Assembly (NCBI RefSeq): GCF_023856365.1
Contig: NC_064548.1
Coordinates: 17,718,461 to 17,782,460 of the forward strand
Source: Brienomyrus brachyistius
Taxonomy: Eukaryota; Chordata; Actinopteri; Osteoglossiformes; Mormyridae
DNA: 64,000 nucleotides
Direction: 5' to 3'
The position numbers and the translations under genes are program-made. The number at the start of each line of letters is the position of its first letter. The first letter of the stretch is position 1. The notes beneath the pieces are model-generated. The model saw only the letters and a program-made list of their open reading frames with translations. It was not told the origin of the DNA and did no database searches. Positions 8,129-48,800 of this stretch are shown piece after piece.

Positions 8129-11100
8129 TCATCTATAATGCAGAAAGTCACTGAGGCACAGGGGAAGGCAGAGGCTGGACAGCTTGTGGAGTCGCATCCT
8201 CCCGAGGTCCTGCCTTATGCGGAACCTGCAGAGCTGAGCTAGAGTGGAAGGACCTGGGCACGAGAGGAGAGCATGTCAGCCATGATCCTCCCATCTTCGT
8301 TAGCGGCGTGTCTCTAATCCACCACCAGGGGGCACTCTGCACTCCAAAAAACACCTCAAAAATGTGTAACTCGGGAGATTACCTATCAAAAGCTTGACAG
8401 AAGCATCCAGGTGTTGTTTTCCCATGCAGGCTGGCCTACCTTGTCTAAGCAGCAGCACCCTCGCTGCGGAGCCATTGGCCGGAGCCAGTTCCACGGGTCT
8501 CTTCCCTTCGCTGTTCCTTGCCCAGGAGTTGGCGCCGTAGTCTGTGAGCAGCTCCGCGGCGGCCGGGCTGTCGACCTGGGCAGCGGCGTGAAGAGCCGTG
8601 TCTCCTGCCCTCCCTCTGTGCACGTCGGCTCCTGCGGTCACACGGACACACAGTCACGCCTCCGTTTCAGCCAAGTGCTGCGGCCAGAGGTCGGTGCTTT
8701 AAGTCAAGGTGTGAAAGAAGACAGACCAAGCTGTAGGAGTCTCTCCACACAGTCCGTTCTCCGGAAGAGACAGGCGGTGAACAGAGGCGTCCCCAGCCGT
8801 GGGACCTCCAAGTCGATATCCACCCCACTGGCCAGCAGGAGCTCCATACATTCCCTGTGACCTGATGAGAGAAAAAAGGGAAATGATTCCATTAAAACCC
8901 AAGGATCACCGATTAGTGCTTCATGAAGACATCATACCATGAGAAAGAGTCGCATTTCATTACCGTTAAACAACTCCTGGTAAAACACGATCATATTTTT
9001 GTTACACTTCCCTGAATATTATACATACGATTCTCAAAACGTTATGAAAAGTGCCAAAAAATATGCAGATCAGAGAAAATAAATTTGCTTAAATTTAGTT
9101 GTCATAAATTCTGATGGTTCATGAAGGTGAGTTGCAGTGTATGTTTTGTAACTTAAAATGCAACATAAAGCTTGTGTATGTTCACGCATGCTTCACATTG
9201 TCAGCCTAGTGCAGGCTGCATTTCTACTTTGTAAGCTAATAAATAATATGAACGATCAATCGAATTATGCTCCAAATTTCACCCGGGGGCCCCTGGAATC
9301 TTCCTGACTTCCCTCTCTTTACTCCTGCAAATGAACTAGAGTGTAGTTTTCTTTTCTCAGTTTATTAGGATAAGTCACATTTTTTTTTTCCAACAGGTGG
9401 CAGCTTTGATTCATTTTTGAAAAGAAAAACACTGTTTTGGAGCCTATATTAGGAACCACAGGGAACGTCCCCGAACAGGATGCCGGCGTGCCCCATGCCA
9501 ACACGCACACATACAGTCACAGTACAACACAGGATGGAGCCCTTTACCTCTCTTTTCTTATCTACATTTCCTGTTTAATTCCACTATGGCTAAATGGTAA
9601 CCTCCATCCCCCCACCCCGGGAGATGCAAATTGTTTGGGATTTCCCTTTGTCTGGAATAGCAGCTGAAGTGACAGACGTAAATACAATGGCGAAGCTCTA
9701 GACAATCATTATCGGCACCTCTCTTTGCAGCCTCGTGGACGGGGGAGGCCCCCGGGTAGGTGGGAACAGGGGAGGGGCCGCGTTCCAGGAGCAGCCTCAC
9801 GCAGGCGACGTTGCCGCTGACGCAAGCGTTGAACAGTGGAGTGGCGCCGTCGACTGTCGCCATGGCCACCTGGAAACGGACACCGGCGACAGAGTCCAAA
9901 AAACATTAAGTGCTCGCTGGGTTTAATGCAGTTTCAAAGCTACCCAAACAGATTTGCGCTGGTGGCGTTGTTTCAGCATGAAGTTAAGCTCCCACATCAG
10001 CGAGAGACGCTTTCTTACATCTGCCCCGCTGTCCAGCAATAGTCTGGCACAGTTAACGTGGCCTCCAAGACAGGCTTCGTGAAGTGGGGACACTCTGTCC
10101 AGGGTGACAATGTTCACGCCGAAACCCTATACGAAAATGGGAAAAACACATGCAGGAGAAACAATTACTTTAAGAAAACTCAACAAAATTTTTTGTTTCA
10201 TGTTCTGTGTAGAGATGCATTATGCCAAGTCGTTGCTGGATAGATGACAGCAGAGGTGCTGTGATTAGTGTGCTGGCAATGCACTGCGGGGAGGCAAGAG
10301 TTTTGATGTCCCAGCTGTGTGTGGAGTTTGCATGTTCTCCGCATATTGCTGTGGGGATTCCTCCAGATTCTCTGGTTTCCCCCCACAGTCCAAAAACACG
10401 GTAATGTGTGCTGGAGCTGCCAAATCGTCTGTAGGTGTGAATGGTGTGCAAGCCCTGGGTTGTTCCCTGCTTTGTGCTCCTTGTGTCTGGGAAGGACTCT
10501 GGAATCCCAGTGACCCAGAAAAGAATGTTTGACGAACAAGTCTGTGCCTAGGAGTTAGGATCTGTAATGCATCGCTAGCAGTATGACTCCAGAAGTACCT
10601 GTGCAAGGAGGGTCCTGAGCACGAGTAGACGACCCTGCAAAGCGGCCTCGTGCAACGGGGATCTCTCAGCCCAGGGGTCTGCAATGGACAGATTACAGCA
10701 GATACAATGGGATCTATAGGATCCCTCATAGCAATATAAGCTGGAGCTTCAATGGACAAAATATCACCCCATCCAGGTCTTATTTCTTTATTAGGAAATA
10801 CACTGGAATTACCTTGATTAACATAAAGTACATTTAGACGGTGTATTCCTAATTTACTATAAAAAAAACATTAAACCTATTAATATTCTATTAATACCTA
10901 CTATTAATACCAACCTATTCTGTGGCCACTCCTGTATAATATATCTACAACCCCCCCCCCCCCCCCCCCCAGTCTTCAATGTCAAAAATGGATTCACAGA
11001 AAAGTATACGCCCACTGCACAATTGCCACTTCCTGTTTAATAAACAGGATATGGCTGCAAGTGAAACTGTCTGGAGTTAACCAAAGGAACAAAGAATGAT

Positions 11101-20585: not shown

Positions 20586-22454
20586 ATGGAGAGGAAGGTA
20601 GACGGTTTTCTCTCACTGTATTCTCTGTCTCTTTTTCTTATATTCTTGAATGGCTTCTGTTAAAATAGAAATATTATAGTGGCACTAAATATTCTCAAAG
20701 TGAGGATGTTTTTCATTTACTTTTATCTGTCTATTTGACTATTAAGTGCGATTGTTTTTTAATGTATTCTTTCAGGACACTTCTGTAACTGGAGGGGTGT
20801 TAATACAGCACACATTTCAACAGGGGGAGCATCACTATGAAATTGAGAAAGTGGTAAAGAATAAAATGACTCATGGACGTATATCTTTTTTAAGGTACAG
20901 TAATGTGAAACTTTTGCTGTCATATTGCACATCTGTTACACGGAGTAGCTGTTCTCTAAACTGAATTTACACATCATACCCAGCACTCTGAAACAAATCT
21001 TTTTATTTATCTATTGCACATTCCTCCAATATGCTTTCGTTGTGTTTTTTGTTGTACTCGTCTCCTATTTCTTGGATTTCATGTTTATTTTTTGCTGTCC
21101 TATGTTTTCATATGTCTTCTTTCATATGTTTTCGTCTATGTCTTACATATCCGTATTCTGTCTTAATCGTTTTTGCACTACGGACAAGAAGAACATAACT
21201 TCGTCTCTGTCTGACCCGTGCATCCTACGACTGAGGCGACAATAAGACACTTTAACGTCTTGTTAGCATGCGTCATCAGACTCTGTGTGTTTCCAGAAAC
21301 TGTCTTAGGAAATTACAACGCACTTTTTTGACTCTTTGTGAAACAACATATTCATTGGTTAATAACTAATAATTAATGATTTGAAGGATATGTTATTGAA
21401 TTCTTATTGAAGGAACACAACAGAAATGTCAGCTGATCCTTTATGCTCTTGCAGCAAAGGAGACATGCTTCTGAAGATTAACGACATGGACCTGCGTGAT
21501 TTGCCCCCAGAGCTGTTTGCAGAGTTGCTGGCCGAGAGCTCTCCTAGGCTGGTGAGTGAGCACATCCTTCCTGTGATACTGCAAAATAATCCACTAACCA
21601 CCACACCACACAATTAGAAGACTGCATTCCTGACGCTCACTGTCCAGATAATGTTTGTGTGAATGTGCATCTTCACAGTACATTTTCATTAGAAAATATT
21701 ATCAAAGCAGCAACACCTGACATAGACATCAAGCGCTGAAATACAAACCTTCAGAAAAAAATGTACAGCCCTGGTACAGTTTTGTTCTCCAAGGTATAAC
21801 CCCCCAGTGGTACAAAATGTTCCTTGGAGTCCATTTCTGTACCTTAAATTAGACTAAAAGGTATATTTACTTTACAGCTAGGGTACAATTGGCAGACCAT
21901 TGAAGATGCAGCATAGGTGACAAGTAATTGTACCCTCAAAGGTACAAAGTGGTCCATTTTTTTGGACAGTGAAGCCTATGCACCCAGATCTGTCTCAAAA
22001 AATAAATGTATGCTCCTTTAAGTGCTTCTGAGCTGTCTTCCATCTTGGTATGTTCCGCAGTAATTTAGAAGTTCTTCTGCTTAATCTGACATTTGCTCGA
22101 ATTTTTTATTTTTTGTAAATATCGTCGTTTTACATTCCAATCATTAGGTTATGCTAATTTTTGTGTTTTTTTGTTATACAGTTAAAAAAATTTTAAATGG
22201 GTTTTATAATAGCTAATGGTATAAATGCATCTCCGAAAATTCATCTCTTGAGGGTTCAGTTCTGTCTCCCTAATGAAATGATATTGATGCATGAGCTTCG
22301 GCCTCCATTACAGTTTTCTGAGGGAGTTTGTGATTTGAAGATGAGAACCACGGAATCTGCTTATCAAACAAGCTGTTTAAGAAGATGTTCAGTCCCATTC
22401 CTCATCCAAACATGCTAACAACTATCTTGAAATTATGAACTGAATTTAAATATA

Positions 22455-22496
<42 letters not shown>

Positions 22497-24117
22497 CTGT
22501 AGAAATACTCAGATATAAAACAGCCAATAAAGCTGTTGACATATTAATCTGACATATGACCGTGGCCACTTACATGAAGTTTCCTGTTGATGCTCGATAC
22601 AGACGGTCTATCAGCCCCACAAGAACGCCCCTAAAGAGAAGTGTCTGGAGAATGGAGGGTTCCGGGCCTTCTCTAAGGAGAATAAGGTCTTGAGTTTCAA
22701 CCTAGACTTGAGCAGAGAGGCTGACCCAGACGATGTGACAAAAGAAAACTTTCATGAAGCTGCCAAGCCAGAAAGCCAGCTGGACAAGCTGCTGTTGGTC
22801 ACCATGATCAGCACCAGCTTCTCCGTCATCACTGGACGTGGATGTGACAAGGAAGGCCTCTGCCAGGATAAGTTTTGTACAGAGTGCAACCAAAACGATG
22901 TGATTATGGAGGCTAAGTCGAGCAATATCACCCAGGGTAAGGCCTCTTGGGACTTTTACTTACGCAAAAATGTTCTGAGGGCAGAAGGAAAAATGATTGG
23001 TTGAGAGAAAGAGATGACCAATCAGACTGTCGAGCAGGTGGATCCAAGCAACCAGAGGAGGTAGGACCAACCAATCAGATGTCTTGGTCCCACCTCCTCT
23101 AGATGCATGAGCCTGACAGCAGTAAGTACTCAGAGTTCTCTGATCTGATCAGCCCCAAGCACTGCCGGTAATTAACATTAGATACTGTTTCCCTGTGTTG
23201 AATCAAAACTCAATGTTGTTTCTTCCACTCTGTATCAATATACCTTCCATCCCTGACATTTCCTGTAATGATCCCTATTTTGCTTTTGATTGTAGATCAT
23301 CAAACTCTGGGATTTTGTAGAAGTTCAGCACGTCACATTTTGCAACATGACATTTCCCCTTCTTTTTCCTTTTATAGTACTCGGGGAAATAACGTTCATC
23401 CAAGAGAAAGTTCAGGACAACATCTTCATCCAGAGTTTAATGTACGAGAAGTACATCCAGAACAGACAGAGGCTTGCGCGCATGTCAAGTAACTGCATGA
23501 CAAACTCAGGTCAGTGATCTAAAAAAATATAGTAGATGCCATGTGGTTTCCGTCATTGTTTGTTGAGGGGTGTCCCACACATTCTTACCATTTCAGTAAA
23601 TATCACCATCTATCTCTACAAAACTACCTGCATCAAAGGGGAATACAGAGGAATCCCGGTTGTCCTGAATTTCTCCGGCACAGACTGTTTTCTGAAATGC
23701 AGCAAAAGTGGTGACGAGCCGACTGTCAGCATCGAGGTAATCGCGCATGGTTCCAGTAATATTACTCCCCATTACTTGTGCATATAGCGGAGTAGTGATT
23801 CAGTAGTGAACCTCACATATGTTACAGCTTATAACACCGGATACACAGATGCACTGTTTCGAGCATATAATTGCTGAATCGTTTCGTTTTTTTTTTTTCT
23901 GCAGAGCTGTGAAAAAATTAAATTGAAGAACATCTGTGAAGGCAATAAGGATATCATGGGGTTTCTTTTTTACATGAAAGCAGTCCAGCCAGACATGCGT
24001 CGCTTCGAGTCCGTCAGCTGCTCGGGCTGGTACCTGCATGCGAAGGAGGAGGAAGTGGAGGTGGAGCGATTCGTCATGACCGATGAGGCCTTCTACTTTT
24101 TCATTGAGGGGAAATAG
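20586..24117 (+). CDS. Interleukin-1 family cytokine with PDZ-like N-terminus, complete, 7 coding exons
   Basis: Secreted-type cytokine of the IL-1 family by its C-terminal beta-trefoil. Exons: 20586-20597, 20776-20894, 21455-21551, 22603-22936, 23378-23509, 23597-23736, 23905-24117; total 1047 nt, 348 codons, all GT-AG and phase-consistent. The trefoil part includes VVLNFSGTDCFLKC and DEPTVSIE (compare the VLKDDKPTLQLE strand of IL-1 beta) and the C-terminal family signature FESVSCSGWYLHA around residues 312-324; the usual Pro of the signature is absent. There is no signal peptide, as expected for leaderless IL-1 cytokines. Residues about 8-80 look like a PDZ domain: SKGDMLLKINDMDL then a helix ELFAELLAES. 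It may correspond to the teleost-specific novel IL-1 family member (nIL-1Fm), but I cannot confirm this without a search. The first exon encodes only four residues and is the least certain. The gene converges on ace2. Confidence 0.83.
21765..21975. mobile_element. MITE-like GGTACA repeat in IL-1-like intron 3
   Basis: Repeated GGTACA and complementary TGTACC blocks (GGTACAGTTTTGTTC, AAGGTATAACC, CTGTACCTTAAATTAG, TTGTACCCTCAAAGGTACAAAGTGG) give a palindromic structure typical of a small fish DNA element. Ends are not sharply defined. Confidence 0.45.
22449..22497. repeat. (AT)n microsatellite in IL-1-like intron 3
   Basis: Two AT tracts separated by a single AC interruption, shortly before exon 4 of the IL-1 family gene. 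Confidence 0.9.
23054..23100. repeat. 17-bp inverted repeat in IL-1-like intron 4
   Basis: AGAGGAGGTAGGACCAA (23054-23070) pairs with TTGGTCCCACCTCCTCT (23084-23100) with one mismatch, over a 13-nt loop containing CCAATCAG. It begins 118 bp after the exon 4 donor and could form a strong RNA hairpin. Confidence 0.8.
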
Positions 24118-24296
24118 AAACCGTTAGATGCCTTAAACACGAATCCCTGCGTCGCACGGAATTATTTGACACACCGTTACGTCCACTTCTAAAAACAGCA
24201 TGTGCTTCTTATGTCGAGAGGTAGCGTCTTTGTCACAAAAAGAAAACACTTTTAGGCTATCAGCCTTTTATAAATGCATTTCTGACAGAGCAGAAG

Positions 24297-25221: not shown

Positions 25222-28200
25222 TCAAAATCCTGTTTGATCATCAGTGTCATGTTCAAAATTCTGGTTTGTCACTCCGTTATGATTTTCATATGGGTTTTCA
25301 GTTGGGTTTTCAGCTTCCTCTTTCTTGGCTTTCCTGTGAAAAAGATCATTACATTTATGTAAGGCTTGAATAACTAACAGCAACAGAATTCACACTGCAC
25401 GCTTTGTACATTTGCGACTCAGCCAGCGCAACATTGTAAATGCATTTCAGTCAATAAACATGTGTGCTGACATTTCTTTAAGCTGTTTGCTCGGGTGACG
25501 ACACTCACCGCTTCCTGTCCCGGACGCCAGAGATGATAAGGTATGTTCCAACCAGAAGTAAAAGACCCATGACGACTCCGAACACCACCAGCCACACTGT
25601 CAGGGCCGGCTCCACGGGTGGGGGCAGCGTGGAAATGATGCCTTCAAACTCCAGCGTCTTATCATCAAGCAGGAATGCGCTGTTGATTCTGCCCCTGGAG
25701 TGCCTGCGTACACCGGTACCATCGTATTTGCTGTTAATTTTGGAAGGTGACCCCATTGCATTGATTACAAAACTTTGGCAAATTATGAAAACTATGGCAA
25801 AGGTCTGATCATACTGGTAATGACCGGTTGGGCGCGGACTGTAGCATCCAGCAAATGTTGCTGTAAGGCTAGGACCTTTGAGAATGCAGAGTAACAGTGT
25901 GTGGTCGATTTTCATAGGACTCATGTCCCTTCCTGGGTATGCCCATTCCTTGTACCTCTTGAAGTCCCCCCCCCCCCCCCATATTTCTTGGATAAGTAGT
26001 CGGATGATGAATGGATAATGACTGCAGGATAATTACCCATGACTACGGGCTTGATTAATGTGTGAGGGTTGATGGACTGGGGTGGTGGATTGAGTTAATC
26101 ACTATAGGATGACAACCTGTGTCATCTGGCTATATCTCTGTGGGTTGGGGTGCAAGATATCAGATTTTATTAATATGTAAAGCCTGATGGCCTGTGACAT
26201 TGAGTTTGATTAATCTGCGGAAGGTGATTGCTTGTGATATTGGTTTCAATTAATCTTTGTAGTTCAGCGGCCAGTGGGTTTTTTTTTATTATTAATCACT
26301 ACCCTCTCGGTATGAGTCAATGCTACACTGATACGTATATAACTTCAAAAGTACATTTTTGAGAATCGTAAGATTTCTGTGTACAATGTAGGCCGCGCTC
26401 TCATGAGTCACTAGAGAAGGCCTTACCGAATAGCAGACTCCACTTCTGCCTTTGGGATGAGCACCACTGGGTCGGCGGGATTTGTCACCACAAAGTAGAA
26501 CGAGATCCTTGGTTTAACTTGATAAGTGTGGATGTTGTCTGACCTGGGTATTTTAAAATGGAGTTTCCGCCCAAAGAACCAAAGATTACTTTTTCATACA
26601 TCATTACAATTTGCGCTGAAACATTTGCTATTAGGTTATTTTAAACTAAGAAAAGCATTTAAAAAGTAGGTTTAATTCGTTCTTAGATCAATATGTACAT
26701 AGATAGTGAAGAGCGTCCTTTATTCCTCAACAGTCTTTCTTACATGAAGTTCAGTGTCTGTCCCAACACCAGGGTGTAATACTGTCGCATAGCATAGGCC
26801 ATGGTGGCTTTGAAAAGGTACAATTCATTGTCATTCCACTGGTACTGCAAAGAAGGATAAAGATGCTATACTTATTGCATTTTACATAAGTCTTTAAGTA
26901 GGGTTATTCTGAGAAATACAGCTCTGAAAAAAATTATGAGATCACTATATATTTTAAAAAATCTGCATTTTTAAATTCTGGTTTAATAGTGGTTCTGCTG
27001 GCAGAAGGCTACGCTGAGCAGCAGATTGCAGCAAGACTGTAGTCCCATATAGCAAGGAAGCAGCCCTTCATCACTGAGAAGCAGGGAAGAGCCGAACTGG
27101 AGTTCAAAAAGAAGTATATTTTACACAGAAGCAGACCCATAAAATGAGTGAAACTGAAAATGTTGCTGTGGTCTCTAGATTTTTTCCAGGGCTGTATATA
27201 CAAAAGATTACAAGGATTACTATCGACTGCAAAAACTTGTTGTGGACTCACAGCTTGATCACCCATTGCAGCTTTAAGACTCAGTCTGACTTTGAAGGCC
27301 TCTTTAGAGTCTGTGTAGTAGAAAAGCTCATTAAGAACTTTCATGGACATCAATCCAAAAATGAGCAAAAGCGTTCTTCATTTATTTTCACGTTCTTACA
27401 TGGATCTGTTGCGACATTCCATCCTGGAAACCTGTTGTTCTTACGATTTTCCTCCTGTAGCCATGTTTGTAGCACACTGAAGTATTCCAGGAGTGGCTTT
27501 GAGTCCATCCTGGTGACTCCAGACACTTGCTCCAGAGCTCTGGTCCATGACTTAGATTTTCCCAACTCCAGCATGGCCCTGAAGTACAGCATGCAGATAC
27601 ACCATTGCGGCAAAGTTCCACGGATTTACAATAACATTGTTATTCAGACTTATGTTTGAAAACGAGATAAGGTTAAAGCAAGAGGTCTCATTAATCTTAA
27701 AGTTTGAGTAAATTGGGGACATCTGCTAAAATGTGTTTGTCATTTTTTTCCATCTGAGGTATAAAGATTAGAAGGGTAAATTCATTGCACCCAGGTGTCA
27801 TCTTTTACATTATAAAAGTGCAGCATAAATAATGTTTATCTGGAAGTTGTTGTTTACCTAAGTTTATCACCAGCTGGTTTGGAATTGGTGATGTCACACT
27901 TGAATAAAGGTCCAGTGTGTCCGGCAGTTTCACACAGGGAGGCCTGGAACTGGAACTGGTAAATGGTTCTGGTGAAATACCTGCAGGATCCATGAAGAAA
28001 AGGCAGGTAGCTTTAGGTGATAAGTTTGCTGATGCTGTGCTGATATTATAATCCAGCGTGTTTTAGCATCGTTTAGCGTCGGTTTTTGTACTGGTTATAT
28101 GTGATGATGGATGAACACGGCACCTAATGAATGAATAATCATTGGCTACGTGGAATAAGGCGGCTGGGTCGCAGTATGTCTCGTCTCTGGGCAGAGGCTC

Positions 28201-31200
28201 CACTACACCAACCATGTCTCTCCTGTGGAAAATGCAGTTCATTAGTATTCACCACTGTTGTGCAGCGAATGTTTGCGTAACTAATTCGATTCAGCTGAGG
28301 CCTTACTTCATCTCCCACCACCTCTGCATCCACTGGTCTTTTGGGATGGTGCCTTGGAAGACCTGCCATCTCCATTCCTCCAGCATGTATGTGAAAGGCA
28401 AGGTGGCCACAATTGTCAAAGCCTGCTTCATCAGGAAGTTAATCTCTGTCTCTGCAGATATCAGTAAGTAATATCAATAGTGCTAGTGATGCTGAGATGG
28501 CATCTGCCTCCATAGATACCCGAATGTCCTCAGAATCTGCTTTTATCACCAGACTTTCATCGACATTCTGATGAAACACATTCACATATACTTAGAACTT
28601 CTCATGCATACGTACATATCTATTACGTCTGCACATGTTTCCTTGGTAACGCCCAGGCATAATAACTATACAATGCTTAAATCTATTAAAGTATCAATTA
28701 TCTTTTTATTATGTCTAGCATTGTACCTACATTCACACACTATATAAGTGTGAATCTACAAGAATTAAAAGAAATTGCTAAATGAACTGGATGAAGAGCA
28801 GCTGCAGTTGCTGCGCCTCTATTGTCGCAGTTTTACCGTAATCCTCCTTGAAATCCGCAGGAAGAAGGCCCAGAGCCAGCAGGTGTTGTGGAGTGGCTGC
28901 AGAAAGAGACATGATCTCTCCCACGGCCTCATGGAAGCCCTCATTGGCTCCTTCTCTGAAGAGATACGACTGGTTCCGATAGGCCATTTGATACTGGTTG
29001 TGTCCCATCTCATGGTGGACCGTCAGAAAGTCATCCATGTTCACCTTGCCGCACATTTTGATTCTGCAGTTAATAAGGACAATTAATTTAAAAATGACCA
29101 ATCAGTAAAGTATCCAGGATTTCATTAAATCTCATGTGCATTAGCGGAGGAGTCAGGGGGTGGAGGGGTAGGCATAACATAACAGCAGCCGCCCCCCCCC
29201 CCGTTACCTGGCAATCATGCAAAATTACCCAGAACCAGCCCCGCCCCGGGTCGGCCCTCACCCCCCCACTGTGACACCCTCCACTGCCCCAGTTCAACTG
29301 ACTTTGTAATTTCATCATATTATTTAGTGCAATGACAGACTCAGAATGAGGAAGAAACATCCACACTTTTCTTAGTCTCATTCAACTGTGGTGCCATTCA
29401 TTCTCCCCACCCCCCCTTTTCTGGAGTAACCTACCTGAAGTCCTCTCTGTTGCCCATGTCCCATGCAGTCGGATGGCACACCACCATCCTGCCATCATCG
29501 GGCTTCACAAACATTGAGTTTTCCCAGAAGTTTGGAAGCATCTGGTACAAATTTACAGACATGAAGAACTTTTCCGCTTCTTTGAACAATCTATCCACTG
29601 TCCAGCCCTGGAATTGTAGGGGAACGGTTTCATTAAGCTCCTCTCACCACAATTTCTGCAGTAAAGTACGGCCATATTGATAGAGTGGCCCTGAATTGCT
29701 TAATATTTTGTTTCCCTAAACATTGTAGCATTTTGTCTTTGTCCATTTTTATCTTTATTCATTTAGCAGATACTTTTCTTCCAAAGGGTCTTTTGTGTTT
29801 TTTTTGTGGTGTTTGTTGTGTTTTTCACTTCTAGGCCATGGAATATTAATGTTCAGATCTAGTGAAAATTAAATATATGTACATAGCACATTTTAGTAAT
29901 CTGATTGCAGGTTAAGTTAAATTAGAAGTAAGTAATAATAGTGGCATAGTGATTTAAAATCTTAGGATGTTGTGGATTTAACTCACTCCACAGCTTTATA
30001 GGCCTGGAGCTTGGACGTCTTCTGTGTGATTGCATGGATTTAAACTCTACTCTGCTTTTCTTCTCGTAAATCACAGGAATAGAGTATAAGTGGAATGATT
30101 TCTCAAATTCGGGATGTTTTTAATATGCATACTTGACTATACTTGTGTGCTCGCGTAACCGTTTTACACCATCATACATTGACGAAGACCAGTTCCAATA
30201 CTAAGAACAGAGTAAGTAATGCCCAGATGTTGCTCCTGCCTCACCCTGAATGTCAAGGATACATCGGCTACATCCTCTCGCCAGATGAGACCAATCCCAC
30301 GATTCATTGCGGCCCAAGTTAGCAAAACCGGTCTTGCCAAGACCACAAGTACATCCTGTGTCCCAGATTCACTGCCACTGTGCAGTGGATTTGCAGTTGC
30401 GATAAACAGATAAATGGATAGATATATGACTAAGAATCACATGACGTCACACACCTGACTGATCATAGCCGAGGTCACGTCGATATCTGGTTTGTCGGGG
30501 TAAGGGACAGAGAGAGGATAAAGGTTTGTCCAAAACCTTCCCCACATGTCACCTGGTAAACGATCATGAAAACACACAAAAATATGTTAAAATGATGAAA
30601 GCTAATACAGACGCTTCTCTGTTTCTGGACTTCCTGTTTTTATAGACCTACCTAGCAGATGGGCAGGCAGTCCTCCTGCCTCGCTGATGTGTCCAGGGTA
30701 CGTCAAATGTAGTTTGCTTCTCACGTAGGCGTGAAGTTCTTTGTACAGTGGCATGATCTGGAAAGATACAAAGTAGAAGCGGCTAACCAGAATTTGGGGA
30801 GAGAACCCCAGTCATTGCAGGACGGGTTAGCAGCAACGTGTTTTAGTGTAACGAATGGGATGAGAGGACATTAAAACCATACCTCCTGGTATATACGGCG
30901 GACGTCTGACATGAGTTCATCGCGGGTATAGCTGTACTTCCCGTCATCATTGGTCTCGTAGTTACCTCTCCAGTAGTCCCCATAGTCAGCATAACCTTCG
31001 GTTTTTAAAAAATATTTGTAGTTGTATAAAAATTTTGCCATATAAGAAGGTTTTACATTTTTTTAAACTGTATGTTTAACTGCATTTTTCTGTATTAGGT
31101 CTTATATCCATGTCTCAACATGTCAGGTTTGAATGTCTAACAAATTTATTTATTTATTAAGTATATTTATTACGGCTTCTGGCATGATGATCAACGAGAT

Positions 31201-32320
31201 CAAAATTTCATCTGTGTGACTGATGCATCATATAGCTGGAGATAACAGTAAAGATCCTTTGACGTGATTTGAACGTCACTGCATGGCTTGGCTCTTCATT
31301 ACTGACTAACTAGTGGCACAGAGCTCGGCGGTACCGTTAAGTTTTGCAGCTTCGTCCTTCAGCTCCACATAGTCCTGGTAGAGTGGCCTCATCTTCTTTC
31401 CCACCTCGACCCTCCAGCCCTCCCACACATGCAGCCTCTCGTAGTAATCTGTGCTCTGAGCCATGACGCTCTCCAGTCCTGCGATACAGCAGCAAGGTGC
31501 CATGTCCGAGAGCAACACTGTCATTACACTGAAGGGGCATGGATACCCATGCAGATTCAGGGGGCTCAGCAACTTACAGGGGCCCCAAATCCTGCCCCTG
31601 CCCCCCAACACCTACTCAGCAATATCTACCAAGGGGGACTCATATTTCTTCAGACTGAAAGTTCCAACCCAAACAGGGAGCCCAAGGCGTCATTTTGTCA
31701 TGGGGCCCAGAATTTATAACAACGCCCTTGATCTTTACATTGTACTTTTGTTACTTTATGCACAGTAGCCATGCCTAGATACTAAAACTGAACTGAAATC
31801 CCCCATGATCGCCTAAGAATATGAGGTAAGAGCAGCTAGTCATACCTGGTTCTAGGGTCTGACAGTCGAAGGGATCGTCAAGTTTACACACTGTGCCTGT
31901 GCTGTAAATGGTGCTCATTTCATTCATGACTTTGTTGAGCTGCGAAAGTTAAACAGGCACAGTCACTGAATGTTCAGATCGCAGACGTTCGCGAGCGTGA
32001 ACTGAAAACCTTCCGGCTTATGCCACTGCGGAACTCACGCGGTCCAGTTTGTCCTTTGAGAGCGCCCCCGACCCTTTGTCCTGAAGTGCCATCAGCTGCA
32101 CTTTGATGCTCGGGTCAGTGATTTCATTGAGCGGGAAGGTCAGAGACTCCTCTGACACCTTACTGTAGTAGGACCCCCAAATCTCCCCCTGCTGCGACTG
32201 AAAATAGGGAGCAGGGTCATGTTGAAATGCAGGTTAAATCGTTTCACTTAGAAAATTGGACTGGAGCGTCAGACTTAAAGAATCACAGTGACTCCATTGA
32301 TTCGAATGCTGGCCTAGCAC

Positions 32321-32352
<32 letters not shown>

Positions 32353-33243
32353 CGTGTGTGTGTGCGTGTGACAGAGAGAGAGAGCATGTGTGCACCATGC
32401 GATGGACTTGCATCATGTCCAGAGTGTAACGTGACCTATGTTTCAAAGGATAGCTTCCAGCTCACTGTATTTCTGTCAGATAAGCAGCTTTTGAAAACAT
32501 ATGGGTTATATAAAGGATGCTTTATTTGGCCAGAAGAGGGCAGAGTGGTTTATTACATATTGCATGCTATCGTACCCCTGGAACTGTTCCAGTACACACC
32601 ATTTACATAAACACATTTAGAAATAATTTGGATTAATTCAAGACAGAAGTCAGATTTTTTTGTTATAAAATTTACATCTATGTCCATCAATCCATTTTCT
32701 ACTTTCATGTGTCCAATTTAATTTAATTATGTAATGTTTTATATTTATAACTTCCGGTTAATATAAAGCTTAATGCTCAGTGCTTGTGGGTTAGAGGTGA
32801 TAAATGTCAGATAATTACATTTACTGAAGTGTGATTTCGCTTTTATTACTATTACAAGAATTCTCATGATAACTTAATATGGACTTGGATTAAGTATAAG
32901 GTTCTTAAGGGTTAGCTATACCCATCCATCCATCCACCCATCCATCCACCCATCCATCCATCCATCTATCCATCCATCCATTCATCCATCCTCTGTCAGT
33001 GTGTATCCAGCATATCCTTGCAGTGAGGTATATGGTCTTAATATATGTAGCACTTACCAGTTTGTCGGCGTTCTCACTGGTAATGTTTGTATTGTAAGCC
33101 CACGATGCCAGTGAATGCTGGTACATCAGTTTGGTGGCATTTTCGTCGAAGCTCTTCAGGAACTCGGCTGCCCGCTGCTCTACGTCCGACTGACCGCGGG
33201 TCACCCAGACCCCAGCCAGGAGCAGGAGAAGAGTGGCATGCAT
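25222..33243 (-). CDS. ace2: Angiotensin-converting enzyme 2, complete, 18 coding exons
   Basis: Type I membrane zinc carboxypeptidase that trims angiotensin II, with a collectrin-like chaperone region. Exons (minus): 33058-33243, 32039-32197, 31846-31939, 31335-31478, 30883-30995, 30652-30757, 30455-30552, 29435-29607, 28837-29063, 28307-28451, 28124-28222, 27858-27980, 27400-27578, 27252-27310, 26744-26844, 26427-26543, 25509-25703, 25222-25333; sum 2430 nt, 809 codons (human 805). Signal peptide [17 protein letters not shown]; zinc motif HEMGH at 375-379 with third ligand Glu403 in EGFHEAVGE. The collectrin-like part starts near exon 14-15. The transmembrane helix [16 protein letters not shown] is in exon 17, followed by the RDRKR stop-transfer. 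The tail has NPYENH (NPxY) and ends QTGF, a PDZ-ligand-like C-terminus. An upstream in-frame ATG at 33267 would add eight residues. The peptidase appears intact. Confidence 0.96.
26918..27196. mobile_element. Tc1-like non-autonomous transposon in ace2 intron 14
   Basis: Terminal inverted repeats TACAGCTCTGAAAAAAATTATGAG and, on the other side, the complement of TACAGCCCTGGAAAAAAT. The interior aligns in inverted orientation with 45882-46372. It ends only 56 bp from ace2 exon 14. Confidence 0.75.
30170..30355 (-). repeat. Dispersed repeat in ace2 intron 7, inverted copy of 5570-5960
   Basis: GAAGACCAGTTCCAATACTAAG and AGCAAAACCGGTCTTGCCAAGACCACAAGTAC are reverse complements of blocks at 5700-5880. 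Confidence 0.6.
32320..32372. repeat. (GT)n microsatellite in ace2 intron 1
   Basis: About 24 GT units with GC interruptions, followed by an AG-rich run. Confidence 0.95.
32921..32992. repeat. (ATCC)n tetranucleotide tract in ace2 intron 1
   Basis: About 17 CATC/ATCC units with single-base variants, 66 bp from the ace2 exon 1 donor. No SINE body is attached, so it is probably an expanded orphan SINE tail. Confidence 0.9.
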
Positions 33244-33699
33244 CCTGTCTCCAAAGACTGTCCACACAGCAACTGCGAAGTAGAAATATTTCTCATAGCA
33301 ATTGGTACATCACCCCGGCCTTTGGACAGAGCTGTAATTGCAATACACACCCACATCTTTATTGCTGGGTCATATACTTTAAAAAATTCCTACCCTGAAC
33401 CCACCAATTTTTAATAACAAAAAGGCTCTTTGCATGTTGTGCTTATATTTTCTAATGTGGTTTTCGTATTACGCAAAAAAATGACTGGAATTTAGACATT
33501 AATGTCACACCCTCTTATACACAGCTCCTTTGTTGTGGCTTTCAGAGTGACTCCGGTCCTTTCTGCGACTCCTCTTTGTACCTCCTGATTCAGAAAAATA
33601 TAGTCCAGTATATTTACACAGGTATATAAATACTTCAGTAGTGTAATGATGGTTCTTGAATATGTCACAGGCTGAGGTGGGAAGTTCAAGTCCAGAGAG

Positions 33700-38639: not shown

Positions 38640-38845
38640 GCCAGCAGTTTCTTTGCTTTTAGCGACCCCTTGCGTTTGTTTGTGGTAAGGCGCACTGCGT
38701 GCGGTGTACCGCAGAGTCATGCTCAGCTGTGTATCCCCGCCCCCCTCGGCGTGAAAACCCGTCTTTCCTTCGTGTTGGCAAGTGCTGGAGAAATGCGAAG
38801 CGGGCTCTCTCCCCCCCCCCTATTTTCTAATGTGACTCTCCTGGA
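38640..38845 (+). promoter_or_regulatory. Likely reps2 promoter / 5' UTR, GC-rich with GC-box
   Basis: The 200 bp before the reps2 ATG are much richer in GC and CpG than the AT-rich surroundings. They hold an Sp1-type CCCCGCCCCC run near 38735 and no clear TATA box, as expected for a broadly expressed gene. A poly-C run (about 38811-38820) sits just before the start. Confidence 0.5.
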
Positions 38846-40366
38846 ATGGAGCAGAGCCATGGCGCTTCTGTGGAAAGGGGCTTCATATCTCTGAGCGAAA
38901 GCGAACAAAGATGTTACTCAGGTCTGTGCTCCCTGTGCCAAGCTGACAGCTCCGGGAAACTACAGGCGAGCAGAGTGGCAGAGCTGCTCAGAGCATCCCA
39001 GCTGCCCGTGGAGACCCTGCATCAGGTGAGTTTCCCACCCTGCAAGCAGGGGGCTGTTACGTCCATCCAGCAGCCTTTTAAATGTCTCCTAATTCCCTTT
39101 GATAGCAAGTCCAGGCTGACCTGGGCTTCGTGTCTGAACCTTTCCGCATAATTGTAACTAGTTCACACCGTGTTCCTTTAAATTGTCTTTGTAAATTATT
39201 AATATGTTATCCAAAGCAGGCTACTTCACAATAACACTTGTCCCGAGTAAGAGAACGTGTTTATGCGCAGGTGCTTAGACTGTGGTTGTTTTTCTCCGTC
39301 TTTTAGAAATTTACTGAACTTGCAGGAAATATACGCGCCATCGTTTTAAAACCCTGCGCGTTTCAGCGGAATTTTATTTAATTTTTAAAGATAATAATAT
39401 CAGCCAGTAAGTTCAGTTGTGATGTTCCGTGTTTGTATGTACAGAGTTTCGGGTATGTATGACCTTTGGAAACGTGGAAACCCGCCGAACTAGTAAAACC
39501 AGGACTTTGCGCTGGAGAATTCCACTGTATTAACTTATCGGAGATCGTAGTCAATATATCTGTGTGATAACATTTAAAAGTGTAAAATGTAGGTGTAGCC
39601 GCCCTTCCTTTAGTATTCATTCCCTTGCCTATTGTCTATAGACTCTGCAAACGGTGCGATGTCTGGATGCTGCCTAATACCTACTTTTGAGATAAAAGAC
39701 CGTCAGAAAGTACTGAGGGTGTCTTCATCGTGAACGAGAAGGCTGTGCGCGTTTGGTGAAAGTGGCCTTAGCATAAAGGACCGTTGTTTTAACACGTCTT
39801 AAGGCGTGTGAATACTACGAAGTGTCCCTCTTGTGATTTTAATGTATGTTAGGGTTGCCATGGTCATTTTGGGGGGCTCACACCTTCAGGGTCGGTTTGA
39901 ATCCAGCCTCTGTTGTTTGTGTGTGGAGTTTGCATGCTCTCTCCATGTTCTATGGGTTTCCTTTTGGTGCTCCAGTTCTTTCCGACTGTTCAAAGAAGTG
40001 CAGTTAGGTGAATGAGTGAGTGCTTGTAGTGTGTGTGTGTGTGTGTGTGGTCACTTATATATTACATTGTGGGGACCAAATGTGATGATAACCTATTATT
40101 TTGACACTGTTCGCACAAAGGAAAACATCCTTCCATCCAATTTCTGTAGCTGCTTATGCTATTCAGGGTTTCAGGCGCACTGGAGCCTGTCCTGGAGGCT
40201 ATGGGTGCAAGACAGGGAACCACCCAGGATGGGGGCAGCAATATATTTAGTTTGGTTACTTATGGTTAAGGTTAGGGCTGGGTAGGGCTTAAGATTGTCA
40301 TTGTTGGGATTAGGGTTTTTTCCATAAAAATGAATGGACGGATACAAATGTATGTGTGCGTGCATA

Positions 40367-40442
<76 letters not shown>

Positions 40443-43400
40443 ATCCAAGGTGTACTCTTGCCTTCCCTCTATGCTGCCTGGAATGGACTGCTCCTCTCTA
40501 TGATGTATTTGGACCTTGATGAAATCTCATTTGAAACTTAAAAGGGGTCTAATTTGAGATTTTGTGCATCTTTTTGCTCAGTGAGAGACCTGGAGAAATA
40601 AGCTATAATCTCGTTTTGGTTTCACACAGACCTCATCGTTGTCTAGGGGAAATAAAGGAAGCATATTTGAGAGCTTTTTTCTAATTTTCTTTTCCCCCGG
40701 GACCCCATACTGGATAAGTGGTCAGGAGATGAATGTATGGATGAATGTTCTGGGACAGAGAGGTCTTGCATGATAGGGTGATTTGTCTAAATACTGAGAA
40801 ACATAATATTTGTGTTATATTGCACTCAATTGCGATATAAACATTGCTGCTGACCAGTACTGAAATATATGAATAGGTTTGCCTTCTTAGCAGGTTCCTG
40901 GGTGGGATTCACACTATATGCAGTGTTGGTTTTTGAAAACAGCCCCAGTGAAACTAATCAAAAAAGCCTCCTTTGCCGGTTTTATGGTATTTGTAGGCCT
41001 ACTGCTGTTGTCTTCTCACTCTGATATAACAGTGACAGCTGTTATATCAGTACGGTATCAATACGGTATCAATACGGTATACCTTTGATGGAATGCCAGT
41101 CCACAACAGCGCAGGCATTCACACACTATGGGCAGAGAGTCCGAGTATTAGAGACAGGAGTTAGCCTGACTGCGCATGGGAGGAATCCAGAGAAGCTGGA
41201 AGAAGCACGAGTCGGGGAGTAGATGGAAACTCCTGACACAGAACAGAGATGCCAAACACTCAACCACGAGGTATGCAGCAGCAGTACCACCCATTGCCAG
41301 TAGGGGGTCCCAGCCAGTACTCATCAGTGTTCCATAGGGATTTTGTGGAGGGGTTGGTTAATTTCCAAAAAGAAACAATATATTTGAATTTTATGTACAA
41401 TCCCTTACCTGTGTGTTCTATTCATACCTAAAAGAGTGGAAACGCTTAAACTTATGAAAACGCAGATCGGCGCACTGGCGCACCACCACCCTGGGATAAT
41501 TTTGCTAGTCCGTGATATTTGTTTACAAGGTAAGTCAGCCTGTGAACATCAAAATGTTGGTAACTCCTCCTTAAGGCACAATGTGAATGAATAAATAATA
41601 TTGTTTTCTAAAAAGGAAGTAAGGAGGCCTTTTGGGTTCGGTTATTATTGCGTACCTTCCTGGTTACTGCACATGAAGATGATACACATGATCATTCTTG
41701 TTTTTCTGGTCTTCAAAAATAAATATGGTTTCTCTGTGAGCTTCTGCGTCTATTCGCGGTGTGAGAATGATGTTCTGACACACACAGCTCAGTCACAGAC
41801 TCATTGTCTTTGAATGTTGCCTTTTTTTTCCATTTCCAGGAATAGAATGACATTTGGTAAATAGTGAACGTATCTTTTGCTGATGTAATTGCTGAGATAA
41901 TTAGTGCTGTATTGTCATTACACGTGTCATTGTTCTGACTCGTGTGTCATTCATTAAAAAATTTCTATGCCCTAATAGATTCACAGCTGTCTCAGTAGCC
42001 CTGCACACCACTTTCCTGTCAGCATGATCCTCCCTAAATGAATAAAGTACTAACTTGACTGGGATCCAAGCAGGCATAGAGCTGCTGTTTGTCTCTGACA
42101 GCTGCCTGGACATGCTGAATCGGCAGCTTTCAGGAAGACTTCTGCCTATCCGGGGGGCACACTTACTGCAGTTCCACAGGCAACAGTCAGCAGATAAACT
42201 TCTAAACCTATGATTATTACTATATATATATATATATATATATATCAGCTTATTTGAATTATGATTTGCATGGTGGGAAGTGAGATTAACAGGACCAATA
42301 TTACTACTACTAATAATAATAAATTAATATTATTATTATTATGAGACAAGGTAAATAAAAGTAGATGTTTTGAAGCACAGTGTACGTCAACATACTGCCA
42401 ACTTGGATGTTCCCCTGACTCGCGCCCTGTGCTGCATGGGGTAGGCTGTAGGCTCCTTACCAGGATAAGAAGATGGATGGATGGATGTATGTATGTTTTT
42501 GTGTATGGGTGAATAAGGATGTAGTGGATTTTCATTCATTCTGTGTGGCAGGTTAAGTGTTGGGAAGCAAGTGACTTCATGAAATAAATGCAAATGTTTG
42601 GATTAAGCTGAATGGGCCTCCTTCTAGGACACAAATACTGAGCCATTCTCACCCAAGTGAATAAATGAATGTTTCTTTTTTTCATTCACAACTTTGGGCA
42701 CACACACACACACACACAATAAATGGGTCTTTCACTGAGACTGTTTTTTTTAGGAAGTCACCAAACAGCCTTGTCCTTTGTGGGAGGTGGCCCTCTGGTG
42801 ATGTTTGCCAAAAGCACGATGAGGATCTTGGCAGAGGTCCATCAGCACCATCACTACATGCTAATTAATAGATGAATATCTCTCTATGCCATCTTAAGCA
42901 TTGAATATTATTTAAATATTGCAACTCCCCCCAGTTTGGTGCGGTCTGTTTACTCGAACACATCAGTGAATAATGCCGCTAAATGAGCCAGTACCATGTG
43001 CTCATGAATTTCACACGTGAAGTGAGGTTGGCTGAATGGTGTGAGTAGGAGGTGCTGTGTGGACGTATGTCCAGGGCTGATGAAGTTCTGTTCTGCTGGC
43101 TGTCAGGTGGGTGCCTGTTCTTTCCATCTTTATGTCTGTATTTTCCAGTTTCTGATGTGGATAGTTGAACTGGTGCCTTTAAATATTGTGAGGATGTGTG
43201 TCCTGTCATGGGCTGGAGTACTACCCAAGGTTCCCTGTTCCCTGTATGTTCTGGGATAACAGGTACACTCCACTGAGAAAGTGTTATGGGAAATGAATGG
43301 GTGTTCTGTGTGGTCTTAATACAATATTATTGACATTTTAAAATGTATTTCAATAAATGTTTACAAGTAAGGCTTTATTAATACAGCATTTTATCTTTTT

Positions 43401-45843
43401 AAGCACTAAAAGAAAGGCAAATGTCTGTGAAGTGTGACCACTTGTACTCTTTGAAGTGTAGTCACATTTAGTCGTGTTGGTGACCCTTTCCGCTGGGATG
43501 TAGTTGATTGCTTTATGTTAAATATTTATTTAGCAAACTGGCTTGAATTGCTGAGGCTGGAAGTAAAGTTTAAGTTTACAAGAACTTCCCTTCCCAGTCT
43601 TCTGATTTTAATGTAAATATTACATGACAACTAAACAAAGGGCATGGTGGTTAGAAGGATTTAGGGTTGGTTTTCTCCTTTTGTGACTGAAGGCTCTTGT
43701 GGTTTGGAGTCCCTGGAGGGGTCATGCTGGCAAACATCAGGATCGTTCTGGAATCTGTGCCAGGGAAGTAGAAATAGAAGGATGTGGTGAGGATGTGGAG
43801 CATTGCTCACAGCTGATATGGGATCCTTGAGGAACTTGTTACATTTCGGGATTTCAGCTTCACACACAGTTAAATAACAGTCTTTTGAGCTTTCATTATG
43901 AACAATGTTTGTTGCGGAGAAATCCTCTTACGTTGTAAGCGGGGTCAGTACCTCTGGCTGCCACAGGTGGAGTGGTATCTTTCAACAAACTGCGTTTAAC
44001 TCAACAGAAACATTGTTTCCTCATAATAGGACACGCATGGCTTCTGAAGTAGAACCGGAATTTACAATTCAATCAGTGTTGCATTGTTTTTTTTTCTAAT
44101 ATACCTCGTAGATCCAGATAACCCCCAGTGCCCTGAGAAATGGTCTAACAACAGTTTGTTTCTATAAAGCCATAATCCTTCAGAATTGAGACCTTGTCCA
44201 TGCATTTTAGGAAATCGTTAAATCTTCATAGAAGTGCACCGCTTGGACTGGCATTCCAGGCTTCTACATGGCCAAGCATGATGCTTCAGTCTGTCTGATT
44301 AAACAGGAAGCTCCTGCATCGTAGTGCTGATCCACACAAAAGTTAACAAAGCCTCTGTTTTGAAAGGAGGAGATTGTTCATGGACCAGGAAGGGATTGAC
44401 GTCCAGAGTGTCTGTCCCAGCTGGCTGTAATTTAAGAGCTATACACCAGAGGATCTCACATGTTACTTGTGTACAATAGGATGCATCAGTCAAGTTCATG
44501 TAGGACGCAATTATACTACACTATACCTCATGCCCCACCTAAACTGGAATATAGTTCACACATTATGTATCTTATTGCCAGGTATATAGTATGGATGTTA
44601 GCAAGTGAATGTTTTTTAAGGGAAAGGCTAACTCAAGGTTAATAACAGCAGAACAATAGTTCCTTCAAGAATATATTGGTCAACACTGACCTTTCGTATA
44701 AGAATAAAACAGAAATCTGAACAGACTTGGTCTTAATGTAAAAGTAGCCAAGTTCTGTGGGTCGATGAGTGAAAGAAAAGTCACTGCCAAGCCTGAGATT
44801 ATCACCAGTGAGGTTTCAGAAATTTGTGTTCCTCTGGTTGGTCATCTCAGGAGGGAGCCGGACCCTGATTGGTCCATCTAACAGGTTTGTCACTCGATGC
44901 TGACAAGGCTCGCTGCCGGGCTTTTATTAGAAGCCAAATGCAGACGTATCCTGCTGCATGCACTACAATACGACCACACACAGCCGTGCGCAGCGATGTT
45001 CATGATAAACAAACGTACAGGGTGGAGATTTCCCAGGGCACGCTGGAAATCTAAAACTGCACGATGACGTTAGTGGTACTGACATGTTGGCAGTTGTATG
45101 GTACTGGTCTACTTAGTGTTGAGCTTGTTTCTGCCCTGTGGGTCTATGATGAACAGTTTCTAATTTCAGGGTAGGTTCTGATGCGATACCATCGACATTA
45201 GTTTGTAAACCTCAGTTTCATGGAAGGCTAGAGCCTACGTTAACTGCGTGTGGATTGATTTTCAGCTGCGGACCAACCAGCATCGCTGTCCGGATGTGTC
45301 CGCTGTCCTTCCAGTGAGTGTATGAGTGACGTCCCAGCAGAAGTGCCTTTTAAGCAGAATGAGAACTGGGGGGTTGTTAATGGCTCTTTTAGGATGGCAG
45401 CACTTGGAGTTACACTCAACTGCAGGACCCATCCCACCCCGGAAAGAGCTGACTTTTGCTTTCTTGCGTGCCATCTTAAATCAGTGGGCTGTGATGCTTG
45501 CTGCGGGAGGGCACTCAGCTCACGCACTCCCTGGAAACCCAAGGACCGCACAGCCTGTCCGATGGCTTGCTGATGCCAGTTTGTTCTTGATTATAATTTT
45601 CCCAGAAGAAAACTAAACTAATATTGCTTGTGTTTCTCATGGGTTGCCTGTGTGCAAGTTGCAATGAGGAACTTTTTAAAAAAAAAAAAAAAAAAAACCT
45701 GTTTGATGTCTTAGCATGTGAAGTATATTTTTTGACATTTTGTAATAACATTATGAGTGACATGGTGTCTTAGTAGGTTTGAGGGTTTGAATTTAAATGC
45801 TTCCTGCAGGGTTTTTTCCCTCTGTACACACACACACACACAC

Positions 45844-45881
<38 letters not shown>

Positions 45882-48800
45882 CTCTAGAAAAAAATGAAGA
45901 GACCACAGCAAAATTTCCAGTTTCACTCATTTCTCAGTTTATGGGTTTGCTTCTGTGTAAAATATACATTTTTTTGCAAACTCAGTCTGGCTCTTCTCTG
46001 TTTCTTATTAATGAAGGACTTCTTCCTTGCTTTATGGGATTTCAGTCCTGCTTCTAGGAGCTTGTTACAAATTGTCCTAGCAGTGAACTTCACTGTTTCC
46101 CATTCTTTTTTGAAGGTAACTTGAACTAATCCTTCAATTTATGAGGCCCTGCCGGATACGTCGACGGTCATCTCTGGCATTAGAAAGTTGCTTTTGCCCT
46201 CTGCCTGACTGGATTTTGGTTATTGCCAGTGTCTCCTGCTTCATCTTGTTCTTGCGTACTGCTGTCCTGAGCCTGGAAGCAGCCTGCCTCGCAGTGTAGC
46301 CTTCTGTCAGCAGAACTGGGATTAAACCAGGATTTAAAGAAAGAAGTGGTCTCTTTTTTTTCCAGAGCTGTACATGTGTACTCACAGAAGGTTTTGGGAT
46401 GTTTAATTCTGTAAAAATGTTGCAGGTTTATTGGTTTCATAACAGAAAATCCACTCACATGCAATGTTTAATGTATCTGTATCTTTAAGTGTCATTTTCT
46501 GGCTGACTTTGTTCTTGCAGTTTTGCCATTAATTGCAGTCGTAGTCATTGGCTCCCAAAAGGATAGTAAACATACATGATTGGTGATTTTTTTTGTCATG
46601 GCAAACATGGTACTAGTTAAAAAGCACCCAGTGAGGCTGCTTGCCAGTGAGCATTTTCACTCAGAACTGCTCTTTTAGGATTATAATCTGGGTTTACTGA
46701 TAATATAATTTACTGCTTGAAATGAATGTTCTACTTAACTACTAGTTGTTTCATATATTTTTTGTGAACAATGAGTACAGTAATGATTTTTGTTATAAAG
46801 CCAGTAAATTTACAGTATTTTTACAGAATTACGCAAGCGTCCCAAGACTTTCTGTACAGGAACATAGATACCAACCTAACGTTACACTTCACTCTTGGAA
46901 AAAAATCTGACTAACCATGGTCCCTTTGCCCTGCAAAAGCTTTCTTCTCTGTGCCAGATCATGAAGCTTCCTTTCTATAAACATTGTTCATGGAAACTGT
47001 CATCACTGTTAAAATACATTTCTTCCTTTGGATCTCCTGATTTGAGATGTGATGATGAAAGCAGGATGTGTCACTCAGTTGGACCCAGGGTTCAATGCTC
47101 ACTGCTTGACACTGTTCAGCATAGCCAGTGTTCTTCAAAGCATTCCTCAGGGACTCAGAGGTGGTTCAAGTTTTGCTCACTCCTAGCTCTCCCTGCTTGA
47201 CAGTCCATATTTCTGCTCCCTTCTAGGAGCAAAAACTATGAACTGTCTAGGGGTCTCCAAGGACACTGATCTGAGCAACACTAACAGGGCTCTGATTCTG
47301 ATGGACGGGCAAGACAGGCGGGTCAAACTACAGCAACATTTGCCGTCAGGCACAGAGCACCAGGTGTATGGGAGCGTAGTTCACTCTCCTGCAGGTGAAA
47401 CCTGTAGAGTGAGCAGAATCAGGAGGCTGTTGGCGCACACTTTAGGAGAGGGGCGTGTGAGTCTCCGTTTCACTCCAGTAGATGTCCTGCCTCAGGGGAG
47501 ACCTGAAAGAAACCAGGCAAATGGCCAAATAAAAAATGGAGCCGAGAAATTAGTTGGGCTGAGGCGTGGGTTTTGTTCTGGTCGTGGAAACGTTTAGAAC
47601 ATATACTGTAGTTTTGGCTGAATGGTATTTCTTTGCCCACAGGTTACGGAGATTTGTGGAGCAAAACATCTGGGCCACTTCAGCGTAGGGCAGTTCCATG
47701 TGGCCCTGAAGCTCTTGGCTGCTGCACAAGCAGGCCTCCCAGTTCGTCTGGAAAGCATCAAGGGCGGTAAGTCTCGGGGGGGTCAGGAGAGGACCATGAG
47801 CTCGGGGAACGGGGCATGTTTGTGCCGTCAGTCAGCCCTACGCAAGAAAATCGATGTTGCTCCTCATATCCATGCTAACAGACTGTTAGCCGCATTTGAG
47901 TTGCTAGCCATGTGCTGCTAGTGCTACGTTAAGCAGTGCAATCTCAAGATATTTGCCTAGCCCAACCCCTGAAAAACAACGCCATATCACTACCCCTCCT
48001 CCACCAATACTTTTACCCATATATTGTAGCTTTCACTGTAAATAAGGGTGCCCCCCTAGGCTCTCCTAAACCACCTGATTGATGGAGACAAGGTGCAAAA
48101 TCAGAACAACTGACATTTCCCCAATAATTACTCTAGTAGATTGATGTTCAGCCAGACTGTGACACATCTTTAAAAATATATGTATACAGTGGAAACTGCT
48201 TAATGTGATCACGTCTGCCTGGGTGAAACTGATCACAATAAGCAGATGATCGTTATAACCATTTTCCCCTTTTTCTTTATGTCTCAGGCAGATCACCATC
48301 TAATTGACATTTATATATTTATTTTATAGGGTAGTAAAATGGGTAGCATTGCTATTTACTGAATTTTATTGACTTGAAACACGTCTTTCAAAATACAGTA
48401 CCATACAAATTACTGAGCTGTTTGTAATTCACATACACACAGAAGCAGATGGGTTTCCGCAAGACAAAGTAGGCCAGAAAAATTAATTACTGTAATTGAA
48501 TTTTTTTCCATATGTTGTTGTGTATAAAAAGACCCAAAATGAACGCTGTAAGCAGACTACTTGATTACAATAAGTGAATTTACACAGGAATGATTCTGTC
48601 CCAAACTTTTGATACATATAAGCAGTTGATCACTATAACCGTGATCACTATAAGCGGGTTCCACTGTGTTTGTTTGTTAGTCCATTTATTTAATTGTTTA
48701 TGTTGTATTTTCTTTCTTACTCTGCAGAGTGCTTTGGTACAACTTTGGTTAATTTTAAACTTGCTGTATAAATCAATTTCACCTTGACCTTGCCAATACA

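Follow-up and report, generated by a model that had tools for sequence, protein, structure and literature searches.

What stands in front of the cytokine part of a leaderless IL-1 family protein is the question raised by a locus of the mormyrid fish Brienomyrus brachyistius, contained in a stretch of 64,000 nucleotides of contig NC_064548.1 (NCBI RefSeq assembly GCF_023856365.1, positions 17,718,461 to 17,782,460 of the forward strand; hereafter the window). The gene, which occupies positions 20586-24118 of the + strand of the window, is orthologous to nIL-1F/il1fma of other fishes and encodes, in seven coding exons, a leaderless cytokine of the IL-1 family, 348 amino acids long plus stop. Judged by profile matches and by structure models of its relatives, a genuine PDZ fold takes the N-terminal place of the classical IL-1 propeptide in the mormyrid protein. 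An earlier note, made from the letters alone, had proposed a PDZ module at the N-terminus of an nIL-1Fm-type cytokine; this is borne out by the matches of the PDZ profile PF00595 in relatives and by the PDZ fold in AlphaFold models. The PDZ plus IL-1 architecture is not new in kind, having already been published for lumpfish (Eggestol et al. 2020, PMC7144542). The constraint on the PDZ, a Pro at residue 62 in 94 of 94 relatives and the trefoil start predicted at residue 95 are additions to the published picture.

Evidence for the N-terminal PDZ domain

The structure prediction called for in the earlier note was made on two relatives, and both AlphaFold models have the PDZ fold. That of the Megalops protein P0006 (94 sequences, predicted template modelling score, pTM, of 0.54), which is 53% identical to window residues 8-80 without gaps, has the elements of a PDZ topology: three strands at 10-19, 22-32 and 48-52, then helix 62-69 and a strand at 75-80. 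Its predicted local distance difference test (pLDDT) blocks over residues 11-80 are at 92-97, but at 66 in residues 31-40. The model of the arowana protein P0003 (which shares 55% identity with the window protein; 26 sequences, mean pLDDT 40.3, good for the PDZ only) has nearly the same PDZ elements, with block pLDDT values of 47-86, and strand A is poorly assigned in both models. When the arowana model was run through VIA-align, PDZ was named in 45 of the 50 titles among the rows listed, which cover model residues 1-89; the other five titles were complexes of CNK2, Neurabin and Par6. The fold-search rows listed for the Megalops model were filled by the trefoil.

Profile searches point in the same direction. 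Residues 1-87 alone matched PF00595 with an E-value of 5.6e-4 and 20.7 bits (curated cut-off 23.2 bits). The profile was matched by 25 of the 26 first-round proteins at E<=1, the miss probably being P0007, a model without the N-terminal region. At E<=0.1 it was matched by 76 of the 94 chosen relatives, with a best E of 5.4e-7. These 94 form alignment A7, drawn from 126 proteins; the other 32 were left aside as near-duplicates or fragments, as fused models in some cases, as unnamed models or, for some, for no particular reason. The Pfam cut-off was exceeded by the relatives P0006, P0108, P0040 and P0097.

Several results weigh against the PDZ assignment. The whole window protein stays just under the cut-off (17.3 bits, E 0.0063). 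Ten relatives scanned singly gave a PF00595 match in eight at E<=10 and a score over the cut-off in three, leaving seven sub-threshold or matchless: gar, bowfin, sturgeon P0107, piranha and the lumpfish protein (P0036 in the compared set) fell under the cut-off, and catfish P0114 and sucker P0124 had no PF00595 match in their single scans. When the PDB was searched by profile, the best-scoring PDZ rows mostly spanned the second half of the module only, and the top row of the PDB sequence searches is a designed helical repeat (four repeats, 10.2-10.4 and 7.3-8.0 bits per repeat), which was regarded as a chance match. All these points would suit a superficial likeness, with an ordinary IL-1 propeptide containing a chance GD-x-x-x-IN stretch. 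This alternative is already hard to hold, and we consider it extremely improbable in view of the predicted topology at pLDDT values mostly of 92-97, the PDZ titles among the VIA-align rows, the several relatives over the Pfam cut-off and the PDZ found independently by InterProScan in the lumpfish protein (PMC7144542). A chance resemblance was dismissed on the PF00595 matches in relatives, the structural matches and the AlphaFold model.

Gene model and the IL-1 trefoil

The earlier note had read the gene as one spliced frame, with joining phases 2 and 0 and a 348-codon product, and the exon coordinates and borders confirm it: all six introns have GT/AG borders, exon 1 starts with ATG and the coding intron phases are 0, 2, 0, 1, 1, 0. 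Coding exon 1 (MERK; 20586..20597, +, as for all exons here) is the same as the start of the public model P0001 and has a favourable ATG context, AATCATGG. Coding exon 2 (20776..20894; 119 nucleotides, end phase 2, AG/GT) encodes residues 5-44, the N-terminal half of the PDZ with the model strands 10-19 and 22-32. Coding exon 3 (21455..21551; 97 nucleotides, end phase 0, AG/GT) encodes residues 44-76, with the PDZ core GD...IN...DL, the helix alpha-B (62-69) and the beginning of the final strand. The earlier note had counted about 73 residues in these two exons and closed the domain there; they hold 72 codons, and the last part of the closing strand PRL|TVY comes from exon 4. The whole PDZ domain (residues 8-80, from exons 2-3 and four codons of exon 4) spans 20785..22614, including two introns, an extent based on the PF00595 match at 22-76, the model strands and helix at 10-80, and conservation. 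Coding exon 4 (22603..22936, residues 77-188) carries the PDZ end, the linker 81-94, an acidic insert, and the predicted trefoil strand 1 from residue 95 with further strands to about 188. Coding exon 5 (23378..23509, residues 188-232, phase 1-1) is mostly a predicted disordered loop within the trefoil, and a stretch coinciding with it is missing from two annotated relatives. Coding exons 6 (23597..23736, residues 232-278) and 7 with the stop (23905..24118, residues 279-348) encode the IL-1 trefoil and its end.

The join of exons 2-3-4 is present in P0001 (uncharacterized protein LOC125710137 isoform X2, the B. brachyistius public model), so that it belongs to a public gene model and is more than the earlier reader's guess. 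P0001 and the window protein are letter-identical through exons 1-6 (the first 279 residues; exon 6 ends at 278), and the differing C-terminus of P0001 is explained by an inner acceptor of exon 7: the frame-shifted portion 23984..24118 (+) reproduces P0001 at 309 amino acids, leaving the PDZ whole with the trefoil end truncated or frame-shifted. Paramormyrops P0002 has a similarly shifted C-terminus, such as an acceptor lying one codon further upstream would give. A separate PDZ gene mis-spliced onto a cytokine was ruled out, since P0001, P0002, P0003 and other aligned fish models share the N-terminus (with the exception of P0007). The nearest database records of the window protein carry the name 'uncharacterized protein' only, and relatives annotated as interleukin-1 family member A match it (for example P0006, E 2.7e-121). 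The combination that defines nIL-1F (an IL-1 domain, an N-terminal PDZ and seven coding exons) was found in the window gene, with its PDZ scoring below the Pfam cut-off.

The IL-1 profile PF00340 (IL-1/18) matched residues 229-329 of the window protein with 41.7 bits (cut-off 25) and was matched in 94 of 94 relatives, and the beta-trefoil fold of the IL-1 cytokine family is present. The Pfam match agrees with the earlier placing of the trefoil in the three C-terminal exons, but in the model of P0006 the trefoil strands begin within exon 4, at residue 95, straight after the PDZ; the trefoil may extend beyond the last three exons, from exon 4 onwards. The linker between PDZ and trefoil (81-94) varies from 10 to 22 residues across the 94 relatives, with low conservation (0.42).

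The IL-1 part of the window protein also holds a cluster of four cysteines (C157, C163, C168, C171; 22843..22887, +), all aligned in 81 of 94 relatives, many of which read like CxxCxGxGC; in all four osteoglossomorph proteins compared (P0001, P0002, P0003, P0005) the third Cys column is occupied by another residue. We take this to have the look of a zinc knuckle, resembling the DnaJ repeats.

Constraint, binding pocket and proposed working

The conservation of the N-terminus, which the earlier note had left to be checked, was followed in a wide relative search (120 of 133 matches listed): among the matches listed, the module is retained in teleosts, gar, bowfin and sturgeon. N-termini were also aligned separately (alignment A5, 19 sequences, comprising the window protein and 18 of the 25 other A2 members). 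Identity comparisons were made without P0001, P0002 and P0025, whose C-termini are shifted or cut. Mean pairwise identity among the remaining 91 proteins was 57% for the PDZ, 54-56% for the folded trefoil, depending on its definition, and 36% for region 81-153. Of the 4005 pairs, 2826 under one trefoil definition and 2152 under the other had a higher identity in the PDZ than in the folded trefoil; the pairs are not independent, the proteins being related. An earlier comparison (3634 of 4005 pairs, 57% vs 48%) was inflated, its trefoil range having taken in the disordered exon 5 loop and omitted strand 1. Arowana P0003, set against 88 other fishes, had a mean of 52% in the PDZ and 45-47% in the folded trefoil, with the PDZ higher in 80 or 68 of the 88 comparisons by trefoil definition. 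On these alignments, the constraint on the PDZ is comparable to that on the folded trefoil and far stronger than that on the linkers; a level of conservation so near that of the folded cytokine indicates that the PDZ does something.

Its putative binding pocket is unusual. A His at position alpha-B1 is the rule for class I PDZ domains (ligands with S/T-x-hydrophobic C-termini), and residue 62, aligned with the His of a PSD-95 PDZ, is the invariant Pro. The carboxylate loop of the window protein reads TGGV, vs GLGF, and looks short; across the 94 relatives, position 9 is K or N in 66, while G10, G11 and V12 occur in 90, 82 and 81, and the Pfam PDZ match of P0006 begins at profile position 13. 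The GD...N core and the hydrophobic alpha-B position are retained, with G46, D47, N53, P62 and L/I/M69 occurring together in 92 of 94. Four near-invariant residues (H16 in 92, H23 in 92, Y25 in 93 and H79 in 90 of the 94, the three His all present in 87) are not known as part of the general PDZ consensus. With Pro62 and these unusual conserved residues, a plain class I ligand is unlikely. The domain may take a non-standard ligand or act within its own molecule. The anchoring of the pro-form to C-terminal PDZ ligands that the earlier note put forward is possible too; the putative pocket is a non-canonical one (Pro62, apparently short loop).

In reviews, nIL-1F is described as an IL-1beta antagonist, and it has no signal peptide: a recombinant C-terminal trout protein (the last 169 residues) blocks IL-1beta-induced expression, and grass carp nIL-1F competes for the IL-1beta receptor (PMC4929537). 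C-terminal antagonism in a protein lacking a signal peptide leads us to propose a role for the PDZ in docking the intracellular precursor, with the trefoil set free by cleavage or by cell damage, an explanation that we consider, as a whole, fairly probable. The nIL-1F precursor would be made in the cytosol and docked by its PDZ on a partner, via a peptide or the conserved surface of H16, H23, Y25 and H79; docking would set the location of the precursor or hold it back. Cutting, perhaps near the linker 81-94, or release from damaged cells would free the beta-trefoil, which would then compete at the IL-1 receptor.

The PDZ could instead be a folded prodomain that binds no peptide in trans, and packs on or shields the receptor face of the trefoil until cleaved. 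The short distance from PDZ to strand 1, the replacement of the class I His by Pro throughout the relatives and the family-specific H16, H23, Y25 and H79 would all fit such a shield, but at a pTM of 0.54 the interdomain packing of the two-domain model is unreadable, and the linker is weakly conserved; we regard this arrangement as rather unlikely. Still less probable is a main role that is intracellular and PDZ-centred, with the cytokine part secondary and the trefoil-breaking isoforms functional. It would account for the X2 models of two mormyrid genera, in which the PDZ is intact and the last exon frame-shifted, and for the arowana PDZ being closer to other fishes than its trefoil. It is weakened by the corrected identity comparison with folded parts only, in which the PDZ, taken over all pairs, is conserved to no more than about the level of the trefoil. 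The PF00340 match in every relative, the status of X2 as a form known from annotation alone and the antagonism of the recombinant C-terminal protein (PMC4929537) also stand against it, and we hold it to be very unlikely.

A further idea, quite unlikely in our view, is that a PDZ prodomain is ancestral for IL-1 cytokines, the unstructured IL-1alpha/beta propeptide being an eroded remnant and nIL-1F retaining the PDZ. In its favour, the gene reaches sturgeon, gar and bowfin among the matches listed, relatives in shark and coelacanth have been reported (PMC7144542), and the window phases end in 2,0,1,1,0, typical of IL-1beta (a seven-exon gene whose coding introns have phases II,0,I,I,0; PMC4880838). 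The strands of IL-1beta are assigned to its last three exons in the text and to the last four in the figure legend (PMC4880838), vs a trefoil start predicted in exon 4 of the window gene, so that the agreement in phases may be out of register.

If the docking and release of an antagonist precursor that we prefer is right, coupling to a docking domain of the scaffold type would assign a leaderless IL-1 cytokine to a definite site in the cell before its release, as no classical IL-1 propeptide is known to do. A trefoil border at residue 95 would also mean that the published C-terminal antagonist fragment may omit the first trefoil strands: in salmon P0075 (365 amino acids) the last 169 residues would start at about residue 197, past the first predicted strands.

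Neighbouring genes and related systems

Downstream of nIL-1F, tail to tail with it on the - strand, a gene at 25250-33309 contains peptidase M2 exons and a collectrin exon (Pfam), matches on which it is probably ACE2. Its putative last exon ends in ...DDQTGF*, resembling a class I PDZ ligand. Upstream of nIL-1F are ankyrin-repeat exons (8300-9905, -; Pfam Ank), which we take to be possibly part of an ASB-type gene. An EH-domain exon (55383-55697, +; Pfam match) closes the stretch 38831-55697 (+), presumably a REPS2-type gene, and no Pfam match was found at 38831-39151 of this + strand stretch. The odd names of some relatives among the matches listed, cltrn (Clupea), pirin (Nerophis) and BMX (Acipenser), suggest the same neighbourhood in other fishes.

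The closest known system is the lumpfish nIL-1F, a protein of 352 amino acids with a PDZ (IPR001478) and an IL-1 family domain, for which Sanger sequencing verified the merged transcript (PMC7144542). Like the window gene, it has both domains, seven coding exons and about 350 amino acids; the lumpfish is a percomorph, whereas the window species is an osteoglossomorph, and the accessible text names the PDZ without discussing it. Beyond this paper, no relevant PDZ plus IL-1 report was found among the matches listed, in a search that subscription papers mostly lay outside. The il1fma proteins of other fishes (Megalops P0006, Larimichthys P0040) have the two domains and the conserved residues as in the window protein, but score over the Pfam PDZ cut-off, with the window sequence under it. 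IL-1beta is likewise a beta-trefoil cytokine free of a signal peptide and shares the last five phases; it carries the IL-1 propeptide, whereas the window nIL-1F has a PDZ there, and its first trefoil strand is predicted in the fourth of seven exons. PDZ domains like those of Dlg, Scribble, Tiam1 and afadin, which are scaffold modules, resemble the nIL-1F PDZ in their strand and helix order, GD...N core and structural match, and differ from it in having the GLGF loop, in contrast to an apparently shortened loop and a Pro at alpha-B1. The bioactive part of IL-16 also comes from a PDZ protein, but there the PDZ itself is the cytokine, and there is no IL-1 trefoil.
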